A stretch of 64,000 nucleotides of DNA from Mesorhizobium sp. M9A.F.Ca.ET.002.03.1.2. Lineage in GTDB: Bacteria; Pseudomonadota; Alphaproteobacteria; Rhizobiales; Rhizobiaceae. Within the stretch, counting starts at the first letter, position 1. The number at the start of each line of letters is the position of its first letter. The notes below the pieces were generated by a model. That model did not search any database and was not told where the DNA came from. It was given only the letters and a program-made list of their open reading frames with translations. Positions 22,724-32,842 of the stretch are shown here, piece after piece. A program made the translations under genes and the position numbers. The stretch lies in contig NZ_CP034443.1 of assembly GCF_003952365.1 (NCBI RefSeq), positions 1,543,001-1,607,000 of the forward strand, read 5' to 3'.

Positions 22724-24705
22724 ATGTCTTGCGACCACGGCTCGTTCGTGCGCTCTCGTGCTGACCGCTTGCGCCGTACGATCCAATTAACCAGTGGTTT
22801 CCTGGCAACCGGCGGCTCCCTGACGCTGGCGCTCGCCACTACCCTGTGGCTGGGTGGTGCCGCCCAGGCGCAGGAAACGCAGATCATCTATCCAGGTTCG
22901 ATGGCGGTGACCGGATTTTCCGGCACCATCATTCCAAATTTCGAAGAGGGCCTGCCGCCCGGCGTCGATCCGGTCGACGAAACCTTTATCGACACGACGC
23001 GCGCAACCTTGCGCGTTTTCGACATTTCAAGGCTCGGTGGGCCGGCCTCCGGCCAGCTCGTCTTCACGCCGCCGCCCTTCGAAGTGACGGCCGGGCAGAT
23101 CGGCCAGGTGTTCGGCATCACCTATGACGACGGCGTCCGCGACGGCGTTCCCTCAGGCATTCCGAACCTCTATGCCGGCGCCACCTCGCTGCACGGCATC
23201 CGTATCGTCACATCGGACGAAGATGCGGACGGTCGCCCAGAGCGCCAGCGTCGCGGTGCTGCCGGCGCTACCTTCATGAACGGTCAGTTCGGCACCGAGA
23301 ACGGCGGCGGGCCGGGCACGATCTGGAAGATCGACGGCATCACCGGCCAGGTGAGCAAGTTCGCCGACATCGACACCAACAGCGGTCCCGGCGTCGGCGA
23401 CATCTCTTTCGACAATATTCACCGCCAGTTCTTTGCCAGTGACCTCGACACCGGTCTCATCCACCGCATCGACGCCAATGGCGCGCCGGTCGACACGTTC
23501 GACCACGGCGTTGCCGGGCGGCCGGCGCATGGGCTCGCCCCGCTTGCCGACGATGGCTCGGTGATGGACATAGAGGGCGAGGCCTTCGACAGCGAAGATC
23601 CAGACAGCTGGGGCTACACGCAGGACGAGCGCCGAGTCTGGTCCGTCGCCTATCATGGCGGCCGCCTCTATTATTCGGTCGGTGAAAAGGCCGAGATCTG
23701 GTCGGTTGGCGTTGCCCGCGACGGCAGCTTTGCCGGCGAGCCGCGCTGGGAGCTGACGGTCAAGGCCGACAAGGACCACGCCGTCACCGACATCGCTTTC
23801 GATATCAGCGGCTTCATGTATCTGGCCCAGCGCGGCTCAGTGGAAAACCGCTATGACTACAACCAGTTCGCCGATTCCGGCAAGGGCGAGGTCATCCGCT
23901 ACTGGCGCGAAAACCCGGACGATCCGGCGACGGTCACGGTCTGGGTGGAAATGCCGCAGGAATATGCCGTCGGCTTCCTCCAGGACAACCGGCAGTCGGC
24001 CGGCGGCCTCGACCTGCAGTATGGCTATGACGCTGAGGGCAATCTCGACGCGAGTGTCTGCACCGACACGCTGGTCAAGTCAGGCGACAAATTGCGTGAC
24101 AATCCAGCACTTGCCGAACAGCTCGCCGGTGGCGGGCCGCTGGCCGTGCACGGTGTGCAGATCACGCCGACGGCGCTGGTCAAGCCGGCCAACGTGCCGC
24201 CCTTCGGCTCGTGGTTCGTCGACTTCGACGGCTATTTCGAAGACCCCGAGGTTGAAGGCCATGTCGGCGACGTCGAGGTCTGGCGCCCCTGCGAAGGTCG
24301 TGCCGGCTACTATGAGCAGATACCGGGCGGCGGTTACCTGCCACCTTTCTATCCGCCCTACTTTCCGCCCCCGGTGGCGTGCCTCCTTGCCTCGATATCG
24401 AGGATGTCAGGTATTTCTGCACGCCTTCCGGCCTTGAGGCCGAACTCTATCTCCACGACCCTGCCGGCTTCGGCGGCGATTCGATCAAGGCTCTGTCCAG
24501 GACATCAGGCGTCGCGGTGACTTCACCCCTGTCGCATGCTCCAGGCTCCCCCCACACGATCGGCATCACCGGTCATTATCCTGGCGAGACGGTCGATGTC
24601 GGGCTCTGCTTCTACAGGCAGTCCGACCGCGACAAGGGCGGCTACTTCCCTTGCTGCAAGATGACCGTGCCGCTCAGAACCCCAGCCGTCAGCTGCGAAC
24701 GTTGA
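22724..24705 (+). pseudogene. Exported beta-propeller-like protein, frameshifted
   Basis: This is protein 1 of the exported cluster. ATG 22724 has GGGGGGAA 6 bases upstream. A signal peptide covers about residues 1-46 (TLWLGGAAQA-QE). The body resembles a propeller: repeated strands, GTIWKIDGITGQVSKF, GDISFDNIHRQFFASDLDTG and RVWSVAYHGGRLYYSVGEK. Near 24374 the frame breaks in a C-run (CCGCCCCCGG). One more C would continue PPPGGVPPCLDIEDVRYFC into the other frame, which ends at 24705. That last part, about 106 residues, has C-x9-C and CC motifs also found in the neighbouring protein. As read, translation ends at 24520 with an unrelated tail. A real mutation and a sequencing error are both possible. 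No function is known to me. Confidence 0.6.
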
Positions 24706-24716
24706 GGAGCGGGAAG

Positions 24717-27700
24717 ATGAGCATTTCAGCACGTTCCCCGCTCGCCCCGAGCAATCAATCAACCAGCAACCAAACAACCGGCGATCGGCCATTCGTCAAC
24801 GTTCAGGCAAGGGTCCGGATTCAGGCAACGGTCCGGGAGACGATCCTGAAGCACCTGTCACTCGCCAGGCGCGGGGCGCGCTGGCTGATGGCGGCCGGTA
24901 TCGCGGTCGCCATGCTGAACCCGGTGCCGGGCTTCGCCCAGGATATTGTTCCGGCTCAGGCCAGCCAGACCGACCTCGACAAGCCCGCCGATTCCGGTTC
25001 GCTCGAAACCGTCAATCCGGATTTCAGGCTCGACCTCGACAACCCCCGTATCATCAATCCGCGGCCTGGCCGGGTCGTGCCTTTCTTCACCAAGAAAGGC
25101 AGGCAACGAGGCTGCGACTATGTCGTATATTCCCTGAGCTTCGGCCTGCGCGGCAGCCCGCAAGCTTTTGCCAGCCCGGGCCTCGCGGCCGCGCTGGAAA
25201 AAGCCAGGATCGATTTCAAGGACCAGCTTCCGCATGGCCTGCGGATCGTCGGCGTGCATGTGTCCGGCGACGGCACGGATGCATCCGGCGGACCGCTGCC
25301 CGGGGCCTCGATCAGCACGTCGGCAAATCCGAACGATACGGCGACGGTTTCCGATTTCCGGATTTCCGCCAGTGATCTCGACGGCGTCGGCGCTCCCAAC
25401 GAGCGCGTCATCACCTTCCAGATCACGGCCAAGATCGACCATGCGGCGTTCGCCTCGCCGACGATCGTCGACAATCAGGGCATGATCAAGATCAGAGTCG
25501 GACCCGGCACCGGGACCATCATCCCGTCGCAGGACCCGGGTAAGCCGGACGACGACAATTTCCACACCGGCGAAAAGACCTCGATCAAGATCGACGTCAC
25601 CAAATGCGACCCGCCGCCCCCACCTCCCGGCAAGGAATGCTTCAAGGTGGAACGCGGCACGGTCGACTGCGTGCCCGGCGGCGGCGCTTTCATCTACCAC
25701 ATGCCGGTCGGCGCCGAGATGGCCGGCAAGTGGGTGCAGCTTTCGACGACGACACCCGGCATCACCATCATCCCCGACACGCAGTTGGTGCCGGAGGGCG
25801 GCGGCGTGCTCGACTGGAAGATCGTCGGTGCCTCACCCGGAGACGTCATCCGCCTCGTCGTCACCGGCATCGAAACCTATGCCGGCCCGGAGGAGGGCTG
25901 GGGCTTGTGCTGCACGCAGACGATCGAAATCGTCATTCCGCGCGACCAGAGGTGCCCGCCCAGGGACAGGGAGCCAGATCTCAAGGTTGAAAAACGCGCC
26001 GAGGTTCGGCGTTGCACGATGGGCGGCGGCTGCGACTTCACCATCAGGGTCACCAATGTCGGCGACGGGCCGTATCACGGCAAGATCGTTCTTGACGAAG
26101 TCACCTTGCCGGCCGGCTCCACCCTCGATTCAGGACCGAATGCGCCCTGGGCCTGTGCGCCGGCGGCCACCCCGATGACATGCACCCATCCGGTGACCAC
26201 GCTCAACCCGGGTGCCTCCGTCGATCTCGAGCTCGGCTTCAAGCCGGCCGTAGGCTGGCAAGGCCGCGTCTTGCGCAACTGCGTCGCCTATAATTATGGA
26301 GCCAGCGGCAAGCCACTGTTCGGCAGCCAGCAAAACGACCGCGGCTGCGCCTCGATCCCGATCTGCCGTCGTGGCGACCGCGACTGTCGGCCGCCGGTGG
26401 AAAGGAAGGTCGATCTGATCCTGAAGAAGCGTGCCCGCACCGAGGCATGCACGGCCGATGGTGTCTGCACCTTCGTGATCGACATCATCAACAACGGCAG
26501 CGTCCCCCATGACGGGCCGCTGACGGTCATCGACACCTATCCGGGCGGCGCGCCGGCGTCCTCGACCTTCGGTCCGACCCCGCCCTGGACATGCGGACCG
26601 AACGGCCCCGGCCAGTTCCGCTGCGACAATGCCGGTATCGTGCTGTTGCCGGGCGCCTCCACACCGATCTTCGTCAAGGCGGTGATGCCGGCCGGCTACC
26701 GGCCGGACACGGTCGAGAACTGCGCCGAGCTGAAGGCCATCCCCGGTGAGGGCGACCTCACCAACAATCGGGCCTGCGCCAAGCAACGCATCCGTCATCC
26801 CGATGGCGGCAAGCCGGCCATGCGCATCACCAAAGTGTGCAGCGGTTCGCTGGCCGGTGCTGCGGCCGTTACCTGCCGCATCACCGTCATCAGCACCGGC
26901 ACCACTGCTCCCACCGGTCCGGTGCGGGTCAACGATGCCGCCACGCTGGTGGCCGGCGGCGCGCCTGTCCAGATCCAGACCGTCACCCCTGACGGCGCGG
27001 AATGGGCTTGCGGACCGGTTCCGGCCAATACGCTGTCGTGCCAGATTCCCGGCGCCGTCATGACACCTGGAACCAGCCGCCACTTCGACGTGACGGTTGC
27101 CGCCAATGGCGCGTTCGAGAACTGCGCACGCGGTTCTTACGGCCCGGCGCCTGGAGACGATATCGTCTATCCGATCGGCCGGGCTTGCGCCAAGGGTGGC
27201 GGCACCTCGATCATCCGTGTCGAGAAGACCGGCGATGCGGAGTGCCGGATCGGCCAACCCTGCTCGTTCGAGATCACCGTCGCGAACGATGGGACGAGCG
27301 CCTTCTCCGGTCCGGTTCGCATCGGTGATGCGATCGGCGTCGAAGGCCTCGGCCGGCTGGAAGGCGTTGCGATCACCTCGATCGAGCCGCCCTTCGGCTG
27401 CGCGCCGGAGCCGGCGACCCTGCCTGCGTCCTGCATCGCCAGCCTGACGCTCGCCGCCGGGGAAAGCCGCGTTCACCGTGTGACCGTGATCATTCCCGAC
27501 GACGGCCACCTGGCCAATCTGCAGGACACCGTCAGTGGCCAGAACTGCGTCGGCGTGCTGTCTCCCGACACGCCGGTGCGAGGCGCGGGCGACGTGCTCT
27601 CCCGCGACCTGACCGACGTGCAGGGCGATCGCGGCAAGGCCTACGCCTGCCATCCCTTCACCATCAAGCGTGAGATGGAGAAGGAATGCTCGCGGGGCTT

Positions 27701-28352
27701 TGTCATGAACGACGCCGGCAATTGCGTCTGCCCGCCAGGCACAAATTTCCGCAATGGCCAGTGCTCGTCCGGCGGCGGCACGGTCATCATACCGAGACCG
27801 AAGGACCCACAGCGCTGCGTGCTGCTCAAGGGCCAGATCCGTACCCAGGACGGCGATTGCATCTGCCCGAGAGGAACGGAGCTGAGGGGCGACGCCTGCC
27901 GGCCGATCCGGAAAAAGCCGCCCGTAGTGGAGCAGTGCAAGCTGCTGCGCGGTCAGATCCGCACCAGGAACGGCGACTGCGTCTGCCCGAGAGGGACGGA
28001 ACTGAAGGGCAGGGCCTGCGTGCCGACCGCCAAGAAGCCTGATGTGGAACAGTGCACCATTCGCGGCCAGGTCCACAACAAGCGCGGCGCCTGTGTGTGC
28101 CCGCGCGGGACCGAGGTGATCAGAGGCGCATGCCGCCGGCCGCCGGTGGCGTGCGCGCCCGGCTCACGGCTGATCAACGGCCAGTGCCAGCCGATCATCA
28201 AACGGCGCTGCCCGGCCGGGACAGTCGGACAGTATCCGGACTGCATTCCGATCCGCAGGACGCCGACGCTGCAGATCAACCCGAATCTGTTGCTGAACCC
28301 GGACATCTTGCAGAGGCCTATGCCGAGGCGCAGGCCTCGAGTTCCCCAGTAG
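24717..28352 (+). CDS. Large exported protein with DUF11-like repeats and Cys-rich tail
   Basis: A 1211-residue protein, protein 2 of the cluster. It starts 12 bases after protein 1 with GAGGAGCGGGAAG before the ATG. After an unusually long n-region, a signal peptide ends near residue 76 (NPVPGFA-QD). Then come a unique domain (about 85-300), a C-x9-C...CC domain (about 308-413), and four roughly 120-residue immunoglobulin-like units. Each of these opens like DLKVEKRAEV or IIRVEKTGDA, with paired Cys and a VxNxG core as in DUF11. From about residue 991 there are tandem Cys-rich modules with CPRGTELRGDAC-type units, and a basic proline-rich end. It is probably a secreted or surface structural protein held by disulphides. 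The substrate or partner is unknown. Confidence 0.7.
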   Translation: MSISARSPLAPSNQSTSNQTTGDRPFVNVQARVRIQATVRETILKHLSLARRGARWLMAAGIAVAMLNPVPGFAQDIVPAQASQTDLDKPADSGSLETVNPDFRLDLDNPRIINPRPGRVVPFFTKKGRQRGCDYVVYSLSFGLRGSPQAFASPGLAAALEKARIDFKDQLPHGLRIVGVHVSGDGTDASGGPLPGASISTSANPNDTATVSDFRISASDLDGVGAPNERVITFQITAKIDHAAFASPTIVDNQGMIKIRVGPGTGTIIPSQDPGKPDDDNFHTGEKTSIKIDVTKCDPPPPPPGKECFKVERGTVDCVPGGGAFIYHMPVGAEMAGKWVQLSTTTPGITIIPDTQLVPEGGGVLDWKIVGASPGDVIRLVVTGIETYAGPEEGWGLCCTQTIEIVIPRDQRCPPRDREPDLKVEKRAEVRRCTMGGGCDFTIRVTNVGDGPYHGKIVLDEVTLPAGSTLDSGPNAPWACAPAATPMTCTHPVTTLNPGASVDLELGFKPAVGWQGRVLRNCVAYNYGASGKPLFGSQQNDRGCASIPICRRGDRDCRPPVERKVDLILKKRARTEACTADGVCTFVIDIINNGSVPHDGPLTVIDTYPGGAPASSTFGPTPPWTCGPNGPGQFRCDNAGIVLLPGASTPIFVKAVMPAGYRPDTVENCAELKAIPGEGDLTNNRACAKQRIRHPDGGKPAMRITKVCSGSLAGAAAVTCRITVISTGTTAPTGPVRVNDAATLVAGGAPVQIQTVTPDGAEWACGPVPANTLSCQIPGAVMTPGTSRHFDVTVAANGAFENCARGSYGPAPGDDIVYPIGRACAKGGGTSIIRVEKTGDAECRIGQPCSFEITVANDGTSAFSGPVRIGDAIGVEGLGRLEGVAITSIEPPFGCAPEPATLPASCIASLTLAAGESRVHRVTVIIPDDGHLANLQDTVSGQNCVGVLSPDTPVRGAGDVLSRDLTDVQGDRGKAYACHPFTIKREMEKECSRGFVMNDAGNCVCPPGTNFRNGQCSSGGGTVIIPRPKDPQRCVLLKGQIRTQDGDCICPRGTELRGDACRPIRKKPPVVEQCKLLRGQIRTRNGDCVCPRGTELKGRACVPTAKKPDVEQCTIRGQVHNKRGACVCPRGTEVIRGACRRPPVACAPGSRLINGQCQPIIKRRCPAGTVGQYPDCIPIRRTPTLQINPNLLLNPDILQRPMPRRRPRVPQ
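27687..28244 (+). repeat. Tandem Cys-rich modules in exported protein 2
   Basis: About 186 residues with six C-x10-C units (CPPGTNFRNGQC, CPRGTELRGDAC, CPRGTELKGRAC, CPRGTEVIRGAC, CAPGSRLINGQC, CPAGTVGQYPDC). The second to fourth are each preceded by a C-x12/13-C unit such as CKLLRGQIRTRNGDC. The repeats are coding and diverged, so they are old duplications rather than a simple DNA repeat. Confidence 0.8.
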
Positions 28353-28401
28353 GAGGATTCGGCGCGAAACAAGCCGTGATCTTTTGCACCGCAACGTCCA
28401 G

Positions 28402-28433
28402 GACCTCGCCGGAGCAATCCGGCGGGGTCTTTC
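28402..28433 (+). terminator. Intrinsic terminator after exported protein 2
   Basis: A 12-base stem (GACCTCGCCGGA with TCCGGCGGGGTC, 11 paired plus one G-T), a GCAA loop and TCTTTC after it. It lies 50 bases past the stop, so proteins 1 and 2 form one transcript and protein 3 probably has its own promoter. Confidence 0.8.
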
Positions 28434-28521
28434 ATTGGCCGGAACGTGTTTCGGCGGCTGCGTGAACCTTACAGCGGCGAGCGGCGACAAACTCCTGAAG
28501 GAACATTTCAGGAGAGAGAAA

Positions 28522-30473
28522 ATGTCTTCAGCCAAGCATGTTTTCCGCAACACGGCGGCGACTGTTGCCCTGATCGCAGCGGCGCTCGCCACCACGCCGG
28601 CCGTCGCCAAGCAGGCCAACATCAAGTCAATGTCGTTCCACACCGAAAGCGCCAACACGACGATCCATGTCGGCTCGAGCGACAAGCAAAAATGGGACAC
28701 GCTGAAAAGCGGCAATGTCCAGTTCTGGGGCCACATGAAGCTCAACACGCGGTGGCCAGGCTATGTTCAGGACGTCGGCGTATCGCTCGGCGTTTGCGGG
28801 CCAGGCCAGTGCGGCGTGTTCCCGCCGATCTGGAGCGCGTCACCTGTCAGCCGCGACTACGATCACCAGGAGAATTTCTCCTTCGATCCTTCCATCATAC
28901 CGCAGTCGTCGGACACCGGCATCGCCGTCGTGCCTTATGGCGACCAGATCATCAGCAAGTGCAACCAGCACCTCCAGGCCGATGGACCGACGAAGTCTTA
29001 TTCGTTCACGCATACCTTCCATGCGAGCTTCTCGGCCCTTACCGACACAGCGCTCGACATGGACAATGCTGTCAGCGAGGCACAGGGCGGCAGCTGGCCC
29101 CATCCGCTTTACGACTCGCACTATGCCGAACACGGTTCGTTCGACGTCCAGGTCGTCTGCGACCCGGTGATCAAGCCGAAGGTTCAGGACATCGCCAACG
29201 ATTTCGGCGAATTCGACGTGGAGAACGTCAAGCTGTTCCTGACCACCTACCAGTCGAACCAGGCCGGCTCGACGCCCGGCACTGTCTGCCCTTCGTTGAA
29301 GGTCACGAGCCGGGCGCAAGCCAACCAGGCCGGACCGGTTTCGATGCGCATCTGGCGGCAGAAGAACGCTGGGCCGATCACGTCCGAGGTGCAGCAGGCG
29401 TGGGCGTCATACGACGCGACCAAGAATGGCTATTTCGCCACCTACGATAAATGGGAGGATGTCGGCGCCACCGCCTATTTCCAGTACAAGACCGGGATCA
29501 TCGGCAATGGTCCGTTCGAGCCCTTTGACGGCTGGAAGGACATCACTGTCCACTGCACCGGTGCAGGCGGTGGCGGCTTCACCGACGCCCTCAGGACAAC
29601 CCCGACATCCCGCCGGCACATTCGGACTGGCAGGGCGAGGTCACTGTGTCCGACAGCGCTGGGTTCAAAAAACTCTGCCCGCGCAAGGGCCAGGTGGCGT
29701 TCGAGGTCGAGCGCGATGCGCCGGGTGCGTTTCACTACCGCATCAGCTGCTCGAACGGCGCGTTCTTCACGGGAACCACGGCCGCCTTCAACAATGGCGG
29801 GGTGTTCAAGGCGAGCGCTGCACATGAACTCAACATCGTCAGGACCCGCTCGATCCAGTGCACCCTGCAGGAGATCAAGCAGAATGGCGCGATCGCCACC
29901 ATTGACAACGACGGCGAGGATTTCACCTGCATCAAGCGCAATTTCGACCCGAAAGCCGACGATCTAGTGGTCGATACGCGACCCAATCCCGGTAAACCGC
30001 AACCTCCACCGGTCGTCATCGATGCCGGCCGCACATGCCTGCCGAGCCAGAGGCTGATCCACGGCAAATGCGTCGACAGGCCGCTCGTGGCTGCCTGCCG
30101 CAGCACCGAAAAACTCGTCAACGGCAGGTGCATTGGCGTCAGCATCCACTGCCTGCCCGGTTACCATCAAGTGGGCCTGAAATGCGTCCGCAATGCGGTG
30201 ATCGCCGACAGGTGCAAGCGCAACGAACAGCGCATCAACGGGAGATGTGTGCGCAAGCCTCCCATCATTATCGACTGCAAGCGCGGCTACCATCTGGTCG
30301 GCAAGGCATGCGTGAAGAACCCGGTGATCATCACCGCCTGTCGGGCAACCGAAAAACTGGTGCGCGGACATTGCGTGCCCAAGCCACCCGTGAAGGAGCT
30401 CAAGGTGCAGAAAATGAAGCAAGGCAAGGTCTTTCTGCCACGACTGGCCAGGCCGCGACATCCGGTGAACTGA
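28522..30473 (+). pseudogene. Exported protein with C-x10-C repeats, frameshifted
   Basis: This is protein 3 of the cluster. ATG 28522 follows an ideal AGGAGAG ribosome site. The signal peptide is about residues 1-29 (ATTPAVA-KQ). The body (about 30-355) is not recognised. It has few cysteines in pairs, including SLGVCGPGQCGVFPP and a GFTDAL segment before the break. Near 29592 one base seems missing (GCCCTCAGG; a C before the AG would restore ALQDNPDIPPAHSDW). The other frame then runs through LCPRKGQVAFEVERDAPG to a stop at 30473. Its end holds six C-x10-C units like those of protein 2. As read, the first frame ends at 29967 with a tail of no sense. Function unknown. Confidence 0.6.
30036..30374 (+). 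repeat. Six tandem C-x10-C modules in exported protein 3
   Basis: The units are CLPSQRLIHGKC, CRSTEKLVNGRC, CLPGYHQVGLKC, CKRNEQRINGRC, CKRGYHLVGKAC and CRATEKLVRGHC. Spacing between cysteines is exactly ten residues in all six, and most units have a Gly two or three residues before the last Cys. Two types alternate (xxTEKLVxGxC and xxGYHxVGxxC), which suggests duplication of a two-unit block. Confidence 0.85.
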
Positions 30474-30612: not shown

Positions 30613-31290
30613 ATGGCTCACAAGACCCTGATCGCGCCATCGGTGCTGGCGTCGGATTTCTCGAAGCTCGGCGACGAGGTCGAGGCGGTGGCGGCGGCCG
30701 GCGCCGATTGGATCCATCTCGATGTCATGGACGGCCATTTCGTACCCAACATCACCTTCGGCCCGCCGGTGATCAAGGCGATCCGCAACCGCACCAAGGC
30801 CTTCTTCGACTGCCATCTGATGATCGCGCCGGCCGATCCCTATCTGACGGCCTTCGCCGATGCCGGCTGCGACGGCATGACGGTGCATGCCGAGGCCGGG
30901 CCGCATCTCGACCGTTCGCTGCAGACGATCAGGAATCTCGGCAAGAAGGCCGGCGTGTCGCTCAATCCGGCGACGCCGGAAACGGCAATCGAATATGTGC
31001 TCGACCGGCTCGATCTGATCCTGATCATGACCGTCAATCCGGGATTCGGCGGCCAGGCCTTCATTCCGGAGGTCGTCGACAAGGTGAAGCGTGTGAAGGC
31101 GCTGATCGGCAGCCGGCCGATCCGGATCGAGATCGACGGCGGCATCTCGCCGCAAACAGCACCTTTGGTTACCGCCGCCGGCGCCAGCGTGCTGGTGGCG
31201 GGTGCGGCCATCTTCAAGGGCGGCAGCGTCGAAGCCTATCGGGCGAACATCGAGGCGATCAGGACAGCGGCCGACCGGGTGGCCGGCTGA
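30613..31290 (+). CDS. rpe: Ribulose-phosphate 3-epimerase
   Basis: A 225-residue TIM-barrel enzyme interconverting ribulose-5-phosphate and xylulose-5-phosphate. Metal and catalytic residues are in [13 protein letters not shown] (about 35-47, with His36, Asp38 and Asp41), FDCHLMI (about 66-72, His69) and [10 protein letters not shown] (about 175-184, Asp177). [13 protein letters not shown] (about 142-154) is the phosphate loop. GGAAGCGGAC precedes the ATG. It may serve the pentose phosphate or Calvin pathways; no cbb gene lies nearby, so the housekeeping role is likelier. Confidence 0.95.
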
Positions 31291-31462
31291 CGCTGCGGCT
31301 GCTGGCGCGATGTCACCAGCACTCGCTGTCTCTTCAGTCGGTCAGGAATTCGTCGGCCAGCGCCGGTGCGCTTGTGCTCATGACATGCGGTCCCATATTC
31401 TCTGTCTCACCCTTATGCCTCTCCGGACCCTCCCGCAGGCTCCTCTTCGACGGTCGGGATCG

Positions 31463-32842
31463 ATGAACCGCAGCCCTTTCTTCGCTGACCTCCTGAACAC
31501 CATAGCCGATCGCGGCCGGATGATGCTGAACCTCGTTCGCGGTGACGAGCCGGTTTCAGTCGACAGCCTGGCTCGTCTGTGCGCCCGTCTGCTTTCCAGC
31601 CAGGGCGAGGCATCGGGTGTCGCCTATGCAAGGGAAATACTCGATCGCTGGCGCACCCTCGACGCCGACGGAAGGTTGGCGTTCCTGCATGTGCTGCGCG
31701 ATCGTTTCGGCACCGATCACGCCAGACTTGCCATAGCGGTGGATGCCTATCGTGCCGCGCCCGACGATCGCACGGCGCTTGCCCTGCACGACGCCGCCGA
31801 GCCGGCCAGGCAGGAGCTTTTGCGCCGCCTGAACCTGGCGCCCGGCGGCATCGAGACCCTGGTGCGCATGCGTGAGGATCTGCTTAGCCGGCTGACTACA
31901 TCGCCTGATCTCGCCATTGTCGATGCCGACTTCACCCATTTGCTTTCGTCGTGGTTCAACCGCGGCTTCCTGGTGCTGCGGCGGATCGACTGGTCGACGC
32001 CGGCCAACATTCTGGAAAAAATCATCCGCTACGAGGCAGTGCACGCCATCCACACCTGGGATGATCTGCGCCGCCGGATCGAGCCCGACGACCGGCTTTG
32101 CTATGCGTTCTTTCATCCGCAGCTCGGCGACGAGCCGCTGATCTTCGTCGAAGTCGCGCTCACCCGGGCGATGCCGACTACGATCGCCGAGCTGCTTGCC
32201 GATGAGCGGCCGCTTGTGCAGCCACGGCAGGCCACGACGGCGGTGTTCTATTCCATCTCCAACTGCCAGGAGGGTTTGCGCGGCATCTCCTTCGGCAATT
32301 TCCTGATCAAGCAGGTGGTCGAGGATCTGCGCCGCGACCTTCCAGGCCTGACCGATTTCGTCACACTGTCCCCGGTGCCGGGCTTTGCTCGCTGGCTGGC
32401 CGAGCGGGCCGGCCCCTCCGCCGCCGAAGTGCTGGACCTCGTCGCCGACGAGGGCTGGCATGCGGACGCCGCCGTGCGCGACCGCGCGGGTCAGGCTCTG
32501 CTTCCTCTTGCTGCACAATATTTCCTCGAAGCCCGCACTGCCTCCGGCAAGGTGATCGACCCCGTCGCGCGGTTCCATCTCGGCAATGGCGCGCGGCTGG
32601 AGCGCATCGACCATCTCGGCGACCTGTCGCCGCGCGCCTTGCGTCAGGCGCATGGCCTGATGGTTAATTATCGCTACAAGCTCGACGATATCGAGAAGAA
32701 CCACGAGCTGTTCGCCGCCAGGAACGATGTGGCGGCCGCACCCGCCGTGCGCCGCCTGCTGCCGAAAGCGGCGAGACCGACCGCGCCGCGGCTTCCGGTG
32801 CCCCGCCCAAGCTCAGGGGATGAGGACAAAAGGGACATATGA
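31463..32842 (+). CDS. matA: Malonyl-CoA decarboxylase
   Basis: A 459-residue protein. The frame is open from 31202, but ATG 31463 gives the known family start before the helical domain. VFYSISNCQEGLRGISFGNFL (split at the Ser-rich loop) at about 256-276, LSPVPGFARWL (about 297-307) and FHLGNGARLERI (about 378-389, with the His-x-Gly-Asn-Gly motif) are signatures. The catalytic Ser and His of the GNAT-like domain lie in these. It converts malonyl-CoA to acetyl-CoA. In rhizobia it usually precedes malonyl-CoA synthetase (matB) and a malonate carrier (matC); here convergent nagA follows, so it stands alone. Confidence 0.9.
   Translation: MNRSPFFADLLNTIADRGRMMLNLVRGDEPVSVDSLARLCARLLSSQGEASGVAYAREILDRWRTLDADGRLAFLHVLRDRFGTDHARLAIAVDAYRAAPDDRTALALHDAAEPARQELLRRLNLAPGGIETLVRMREDLLSRLTTSPDLAIVDADFTHLLSSWFNRGFLVLRRIDWSTPANILEKIIRYEAVHAIHTWDDLRRRIEPDDRLCYAFFHPQLGDEPLIFVEVALTRAMPTTIAELLADERPLVQPRQATTAVFYSISNCQEGLRGISFGNFLIKQVVEDLRRDLPGLTDFVTLSPVPGFARWLAERAGPSAAEVLDLVADEGWHADAAVRDRAGQALLPLAAQYFLEARTASGKVIDPVARFHLGNGARLERIDHLGDLSPRALRQAHGLMVNYRYKLDDIEKNHELFAARNDVAAAPAVRRLLPKAARPTAPRLPVPRPSSGDEDKRDI

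Follow-up and report, generated by a model that had tools for sequence, protein, structure and literature searches.

Two adjoining genes in the window analysed here, 64,000 nucleotides of Mesorhizobium sp. M9A.F.Ca.ET.002.03.1.2 (contig NZ_CP034443.1, positions 1,543,001 to 1,607,000 of the forward strand), may encode the two halves of one envelope structure resembling a fibrillar adhesin, split over two chains and covalently hardened, a proposal that we consider evenly poised between right and wrong. The first gene specifies a propeller-like protein (P1) and the second a long repetitive protein (P2) with five isopeptide-type domains, in a genome of 6.4 Mb that forms a single contig and whose nearest relatives are Mesorhizobium. 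The initial annotation had described three adjacent genes for exported proteins of about 650, 1211 and 650 residues. Three neighbouring coding regions do lie on the + strand, flanked by what we take to be a divergently oriented dnaK-like gene and an rpe-like gene, but only gene 2 is an intact open reading frame (ORF), with the 1211 residues announced. A single-base frameshift interrupts gene 1 near 24368 and another interrupts gene 3 near 29589, and the two proteins of about 650 residues are not ORFs in the window, being obtained by reading through these sites. The frame of P1 that opens at 22724 loses the conserved sequence near 24368 and runs on out of frame to its stop. For P2 we infer a start at ATG 24717, with some reserve because the methionine residues of the relatives' consensus (METIMKPLSYARRGARWLM) are altered in the window strain. 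The features are listed below in positions of the window; the module and domain limits and the triad numbering were derived from the closest relative, locus L051.

22724..24520, + strand: gene 1 (P1), 5' part, in frame; signal-peptide-like N-terminus and propeller-like domain
24382..24705, + strand: gene 1 (P1), 3' part, other frame; C-x9-C...CC module with six conserved cysteines
24717..28352, + strand: gene 2 (P2), intact, 1211 aa; stalk-like, with isopeptide-type domains; orthologs in 65/65 loci
25077..25601, + strand: DUF7929 (PF25551) of P2; putative triad Lys126/Asp169/Asn253
25638..25955, + strand: C-x9-C...CC module of P2, from profile comparison with P1
25968..26390, + strand: DUF11 unit 1 of P2; putative triad Lys426/Asp460/Asn521
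26394..26801, + strand: DUF11-like unit 2 of P2; putative triad Lys571/Asp606/Asn668
26805..27197, + strand: DUF11-like unit 3 of P2; putative triad Lys706/Asp740/Asn802
27201..27659, + strand: DUF11-like unit 4 of P2; putative triad Lys837/Asp871/Asn943
27660..28349, + strand: cysteine-rich basic tail of P2, six C-x10-C pairs
28522..29589, + strand: gene 3 (P3), 5' part; signal-peptide-like N-terminus and domains without an assigned fold; frame lost near 29589
29601..30473, + strand: gene 3 (P3), 3' part, other frame; six C-x10-C pairs, EB-like, below the Pfam cut-off

P2 is a clear member of the DUF7929 family (Pfam, 289 bits against a cut-off of 27, E 1.2e-86 to 1.4e-86) and also matches DUF11 (PF01345; 57 bits against a cut-off of 24.6, E 2.9e-15), being the sole place in its own genome where DUF11 was found. 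The four DUF11/immunoglobulin-like units recognised in the initial annotation are borne out by profile-profile comparison, in which they are mutually homologous with probabilities of 89-99%; Pfam itself reports two DUF11 stretches, and NCBIfam returned for P2 only a DUF11-type repeat below threshold. As far as its accessible text goes, a 2025 survey renamed DUF11 as CLIPPER and solved the structure of one such domain, with a Lys-Asn bond and a putative catalytic Asp (PMC12617251). The same source describes DUF11 and DUF7929 as CnaA-like isopeptide domains, the latter by prediction only, attributes thermostability and protease resistance to the CLIPPER bond, places such domains in the stalks of fibrillar adhesins, and notes that some DUF11 domains are without the bond. 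Its Table 1 gives the predicted residues of DUF7929 as Lys86, Asp129 and Asn213 in the seed A0A090G7K7 (PMC12617251), and the triad of P2 has the identical spacing (Lys, +43 Asp, +127 Asn). That seed may be an ortholog of P2, and the family was possibly built on it, because an ATG in the loci L036 (Mesorhizobium ORS3324), L017 and L024 places the lysine at residue 86.

Lys-Asn isopeptide bonds are predicted for the domains of P2, and the residues concerned are conserved. Numbered as in L051, the DUF7929 residues K131, D174 and N258 are each present in 65/65 orthologs, while those of the DUF11-like units are kept in 65, 63 and 64 of 65 (unit 1, K431/D465/N526), in all 65 at each site (unit 2, K576/D611/N673), in 64, 63 and 64 (unit 3, K711/D745/N807) and in 65, 65 and 64 (unit 4, K842/D876/N947). 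Aligning 13 DUF11-like units from four proteins left nine invariant columns, three of which are the K, D and N, the rest being Cys or Gly; units of the P2 type carry four invariant cysteines. In further sampled genomes K-D-N was retained in 24/24 DUF7929 domains; DUF11-like units gave 131 distinct matches, of which 122 span the three sites and 114 of these keep K-D-N, four of the loci belonging to the same genus, one contig being also L066 and the rest coming from other genera; these units were found with profiles derived from P2 and are accordingly biased towards P2-like ones. A predicted model that covers part of P2, including DUF7929 and DUF11 unit 1, shows an immunoglobulin-like beta-sandwich fold; among the structures that it resembles are the CLIPPER crystal structure, level with integrin Ig domains, and pilin domains. 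At the level of sequence profiles, the DUF11 units gave six matches in the PDB (E 0.15-0.79), nearly all to one PDZ protein and none to a CLIPPER entry, and single-sequence searches of the PDB with P1 and P2 gave no match at E<=1.

The cysteines are conserved as well. P2 of L051 has 53, all of them kept in at least 95% of the 65 orthologs, and since this number is odd, at least one has no partner inside the chain; mature P1 of L051 has eight, all kept in at least 95% of 48 aligned sequences. A C-x9-C...CC domain common to proteins 1 and 2, which the initial annotation had pointed out, was recovered by profile-profile comparison (probability 89%, E 2e-6), whereas none of 30 column-shuffled controls exceeded 1.3%. 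For the P1 side of this profile we used 51 of the 65 orthologs, those whose module was recognised by a simple pattern, and a HMMER cross-search recovers the match in some of the orthologs but not in others. Neither the DUF11 units nor DUF7929 resemble the module (<=4.8%).

P1 and P2 adjoin in 65/65 related loci, 62 of which are labelled Mesorhizobium, and the nearest in-frame ATG of P2 lies -3 to 12 nt from the stop of P1 in these 65 loci, that is, the start is nearly coupled. The rpe-like gene follows in 63/65 loci and the dnaK-like gene precedes the pair in 32/65, within the DNA fetched. Among 297 sampled Rhizobiaceae genomes, 40 (19 of 109 genera) have relatives of P2 and 41 (20 genera) have P1; all 40 fall within the 41, an overlap to be taken with care, as many of the weaker P2 matches are the DUF11 part of a fused protein, and the cleaner count is that P1 stands beside a DUF7929-type P2 in all 24 loci fetched from other genomes. 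Across the class, 289 sampled genomes yielded P1 in five, its own included, and DUF7929 in its own alone. The conserved synteny that the initial annotation had proposed to map across Hyphomicrobiales exists for genes 1 and 2, at the level of the Rhizobiaceae; gene 3 is present in 8/65 loci. A plasmid location was rejected, a single distant partial match having been found among 72,556 plasmid records.

The strongest sign that propeller and stalk may work together comes from distant relatives, for 17 of 25 distinct distant propeller ORFs also hold DUF11-like units in the same chain, detected with a profile derived from P2 that gave no match in 533 shuffled ORFs. The 25 are a chosen set, some of them cut by contig ends, in which L145 duplicates L154. 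When six of the fused proteins (L152, L155, L156, L157, L158 and L163) were scanned with Pfam, DUF11 exceeded its cut-off in two and PG_binding_1 was found in three. Several fused relatives end in long basic repeats or cysteine-rich tails. Very long tandem repeats close the proteins at L155:2555-6274, L162:2231-5176, L163:2686-7038 and L156:2264-4996, with units such as SHLKTGSPHNKLQ or VHRPRGSV that are unlike the cysteine-rich tail of P2. Another relative, L160:1772-8481, has an unfused pair in the order P1-P2, the P2-like partner of which (1556 aa) carries a von Willebrand A domain.

P1, called propeller-like in the initial annotation, is probably a six-bladed propeller, although the sequence match is marginal and the model of low confidence. 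All 27 sequences matched by the P1 profile in the PDB at E<=10 are DFPase or its engineered derivatives (best E 0.012); the model has a pLDDT of 43.7, and its Foldseek matches reach E of about 1e-4 with TM-scores of 0.39 or less, the best of them including SMP-30/DFPase, with NHL and LDL-receptor-type propellers scoring equally. Propellers of the DFPase, SMP-30 and NHL kinds are linked to P1 by a marginal profile match and a low-confidence fold match; P1 itself reaches the cut-off of no family in Pfam.

From these observations we envisage that P2 would form the stalk and P1 the head. Export of P1, P2 and P3 is suggested by signal-peptide-like N-termini, recognised by eye. After export, P2 would fold into a row of CnaA-type beta-sandwiches, DUF7929 followed by the four DUF11/CLIPPER-like units, each of which would close an internal Lys-Asn isopeptide bond with the assistance of the Asp and be locked further by disulphides, and the cysteine-rich basic tail would hold P2 in or on the envelope. 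P1, a propeller bearing a disulphide module like that of P2 and made from the same tight transcription unit, is a candidate for the ligand-binding domain of adhesion. Because distant relatives fuse the propeller and DUF11-like units, Mesorhizobium probably has a divided form whose head and stalk come together again; the shared module may mediate this, and possibly also the cysteine left without a partner, to which the odd count in P2 points. We infer contact between P1 and P2, the envelope or surface location and the adhesive role from this arrangement. The initial annotation had placed all three proteins in one assembly; adjacency, co-occurrence, the shared module and the fusions favour this for genes 1 and 2, whereas the case for gene 3 is weak, and P3 would be a third secreted protein that the system can do without, its tail being of the kind seen in P2. 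The full version of the proposal, a split fibrillar adhesin with five isopeptide bonds, up to about 26 disulphides, a separate propeller head joined through the shared disulphide module and one-piece relatives persisting elsewhere, is offered tentatively and with clearly less than even chances.

The principal rival is a periplasmic layer hardened by disulphides and isopeptide bonds, in which P2 stiffens or ties the envelope and P1 caps or organises it; we judge it rather unlikely, but it ranks first among the alternatives in view of the peptidoglycan-binding domains of some fused relatives and of searches that revealed neither an anchor nor an export domain. Such a layer would be comparable in principle to that of chlamydial OmcB, itself a DUF11-containing cysteine-rich envelope protein, from which P2 differs in having DUF7929, isopeptide triads and a propeller-like partner. 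The 53 conserved cysteines and the PG_binding_1 domains of the fused proteins would suit a periplasmic position, as would the result that Pfam and NCBIfam showed no anchor, sorting or outer-membrane export domain in P1-P3. For a methanogen, an accessible portion of another report describes a DUF11 protein as "OmcB-like cysteine-rich periplasmic" and supposes it to be adhesive (PMC10787695). On the other side, no peptidoglycan-binding domain was found by Pfam in P2 itself, and DUF11 and pilin-type domains are, in the available text of the survey, mostly those of surface proteins (PMC12617251). It is improbable, though in keeping with the DFPase sequences and the SMP-30/DFPase propellers retrieved by P1, that P1 is a secreted enzyme of the lactonase, DFPase or SMP-30 type, a six-bladed propeller carried on a DUF11 scaffold for catalysis at the surface and not for adhesion; the marginal E-values, the low-confidence model and the equal scores of other propellers argue against giving these matches an enzymatic meaning.

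A different question is whether the locus still works in the window strain, in which P1 and P3 are broken as sequenced and the head would lack its module. P1 is read in one frame in 65/65 related loci and P3 in six of the eight relatives that have gene 3, being broken in L060 and L062; since the relatives read through, both breaks belong to the window and could be either true lesions or sequencing errors. That the locus is a decaying remnant, with genes 1 and 3 reduced to pseudogenes and only P2 persisting, is possible if somewhat unlikely, for the frameshifts themselves and the breaks of gene 3 elsewhere are what decay would leave, but P1 is intact in every relative, P2 of the window is intact with all its motifs, and one of the sites lies inside a short homopolymer run, where a sequencing error may be suspected. 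The same run would be a natural place for programmed frameshifting or phase variation joining the two frames of each gene, a very improbable explanation that we rejected on the straight reading of P1 and P3 in the relatives; the second site, moreover, is not in a long run. Further indels between the window and L051 are numerous. In a downstream ORF (window 31202-32842, near 15.5 kb in L051) the two sequences are separated by several indels of lengths not divisible by three, which occur on either side and include 11 nt absent from L051; the gene is possibly broken in L051.

Gene 3 is an accessory and genes 1 and 2 are the core. Counting the window with the eight loci, gene 3 is broken in three of nine copies; all 65 loci have both gene 1 and gene 2 unbroken. 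The C-x10-C repeats by which the initial annotation had linked proteins 2 and 3 do exist, as six pairs in each tail, and their profiles are modestly similar (37%, against 1.2% or less in 30 shuffles). Mature P3 of L051 has 22 cysteines; the EB module (PF01683) scores 19.5 bits in P3, under its cut-off of 24.3, and is not listed for P2, and a single-sequence search of the PDB with P3 gave five matches (E 0.045-0.65). P3 occurs in 12/297 Rhizobiaceae genomes, partly as distant relatives located elsewhere, with close copies beside P2 in G031, G055 (apparently one contig with L066) and G165; in G086 a close copy adjoins a P2-like fragment.

Some of the genes around the pair are shared, with one nagA-like group in 10 of 21 loci, and the others vary from genus to genus. 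Of 16 distinct loci outside Mesorhizobium, 7 have near the pair a gene that clusters with secreted S8 subtilases confirmed by Pfam (four of the seven tested with Pfam) and an ECF sigma factor in 4 of the 16 (two tested with Pfam), with coordinates for one or both at L175:13377-15989, L182:15653-17792, L171:15449-18076, L185:14492-17125, L180:13519-14979 and, in the window genome, C1:1894304-1895752. Neither gene appears in the four Mesorhizobium loci of the neighbour comparison, and the S8 subtilase ortholog of the window genome lies about 320 kb from the pair; we rejected both as parts of the system, and they stay a hint. The EcfG/ECF promoter motif GGAAC-N15-18-CGTT and a second pattern were looked for in the roughly 400 nt that precede the start of P1 as aligned, and occurred in 0/66 of these stretches. 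DUF11 is named for a Geobacter subtilase in an available excerpt (PMC2605481). At L175:4019-7213, another large repeat protein, with DUF11, DUF7507 and DUF7927 matches, adjoins P2 on the opposite strand.

The initial annotation knew of no described system with this composition. No publication with this composition turned up in our searches, but the available text of the survey treats both domain types of P2 as isopeptide-bonded, on a crystal structure for DUF11 and on prediction for DUF7929 (PMC12617251). The domain search that it recommended gave known families for P2 (DUF7929 and DUF11), none above cut-off for P1, and for P3 only EB below cut-off. Two papers retrieved for DUF11 (PMC10787603 and PMC3420878) were discarded, the accessible text matching only as a prefix of DUF1134 and DUF1109. 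Our literature search brought up no account of the gene pair, nor of its linked propeller, its shared module, the split and fused relation or the combination with 53 conserved cysteines, and the accessible part of the survey makes no mention of a propeller, Mesorhizobium or gene 3 (PMC12617251). In comparison with known DUF11/CLIPPER stalks, such as B9T28_05395 of Acinetobacter silvestris (PDB 9ifr; available text of PMC12617251), the putative head here has a gene of its own, four invariant cysteines are present in the units, and no anchor domain was found in P1-P3; in comparison with the CnaA pilins of Gram-positive bacteria (BcpA, 3rkp; GBS80, 3pf2; SpaD, 4hsq), the host is Gram-negative and the head gene again separate.

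For DUF7929, otherwise only a predicted isopeptide domain in the accessible text of the survey (PMC12617251), the partner gene, the shared module and the fusions provide a context. If our proposal is true, the surface of Mesorhizobium and other Rhizobiaceae bears a covalently cross-linked fibre such as has been described chiefly for the pili and adhesins of Gram-positive bacteria, here with an unusual propeller partner. Among isopeptide fibres, a head and a stalk placed on two secreted proteins and then brought together again would be a novel design. Such a fibre would be a candidate for the attachment of these bacteria to roots, to soil or to each other, or for the toughness of their envelope.

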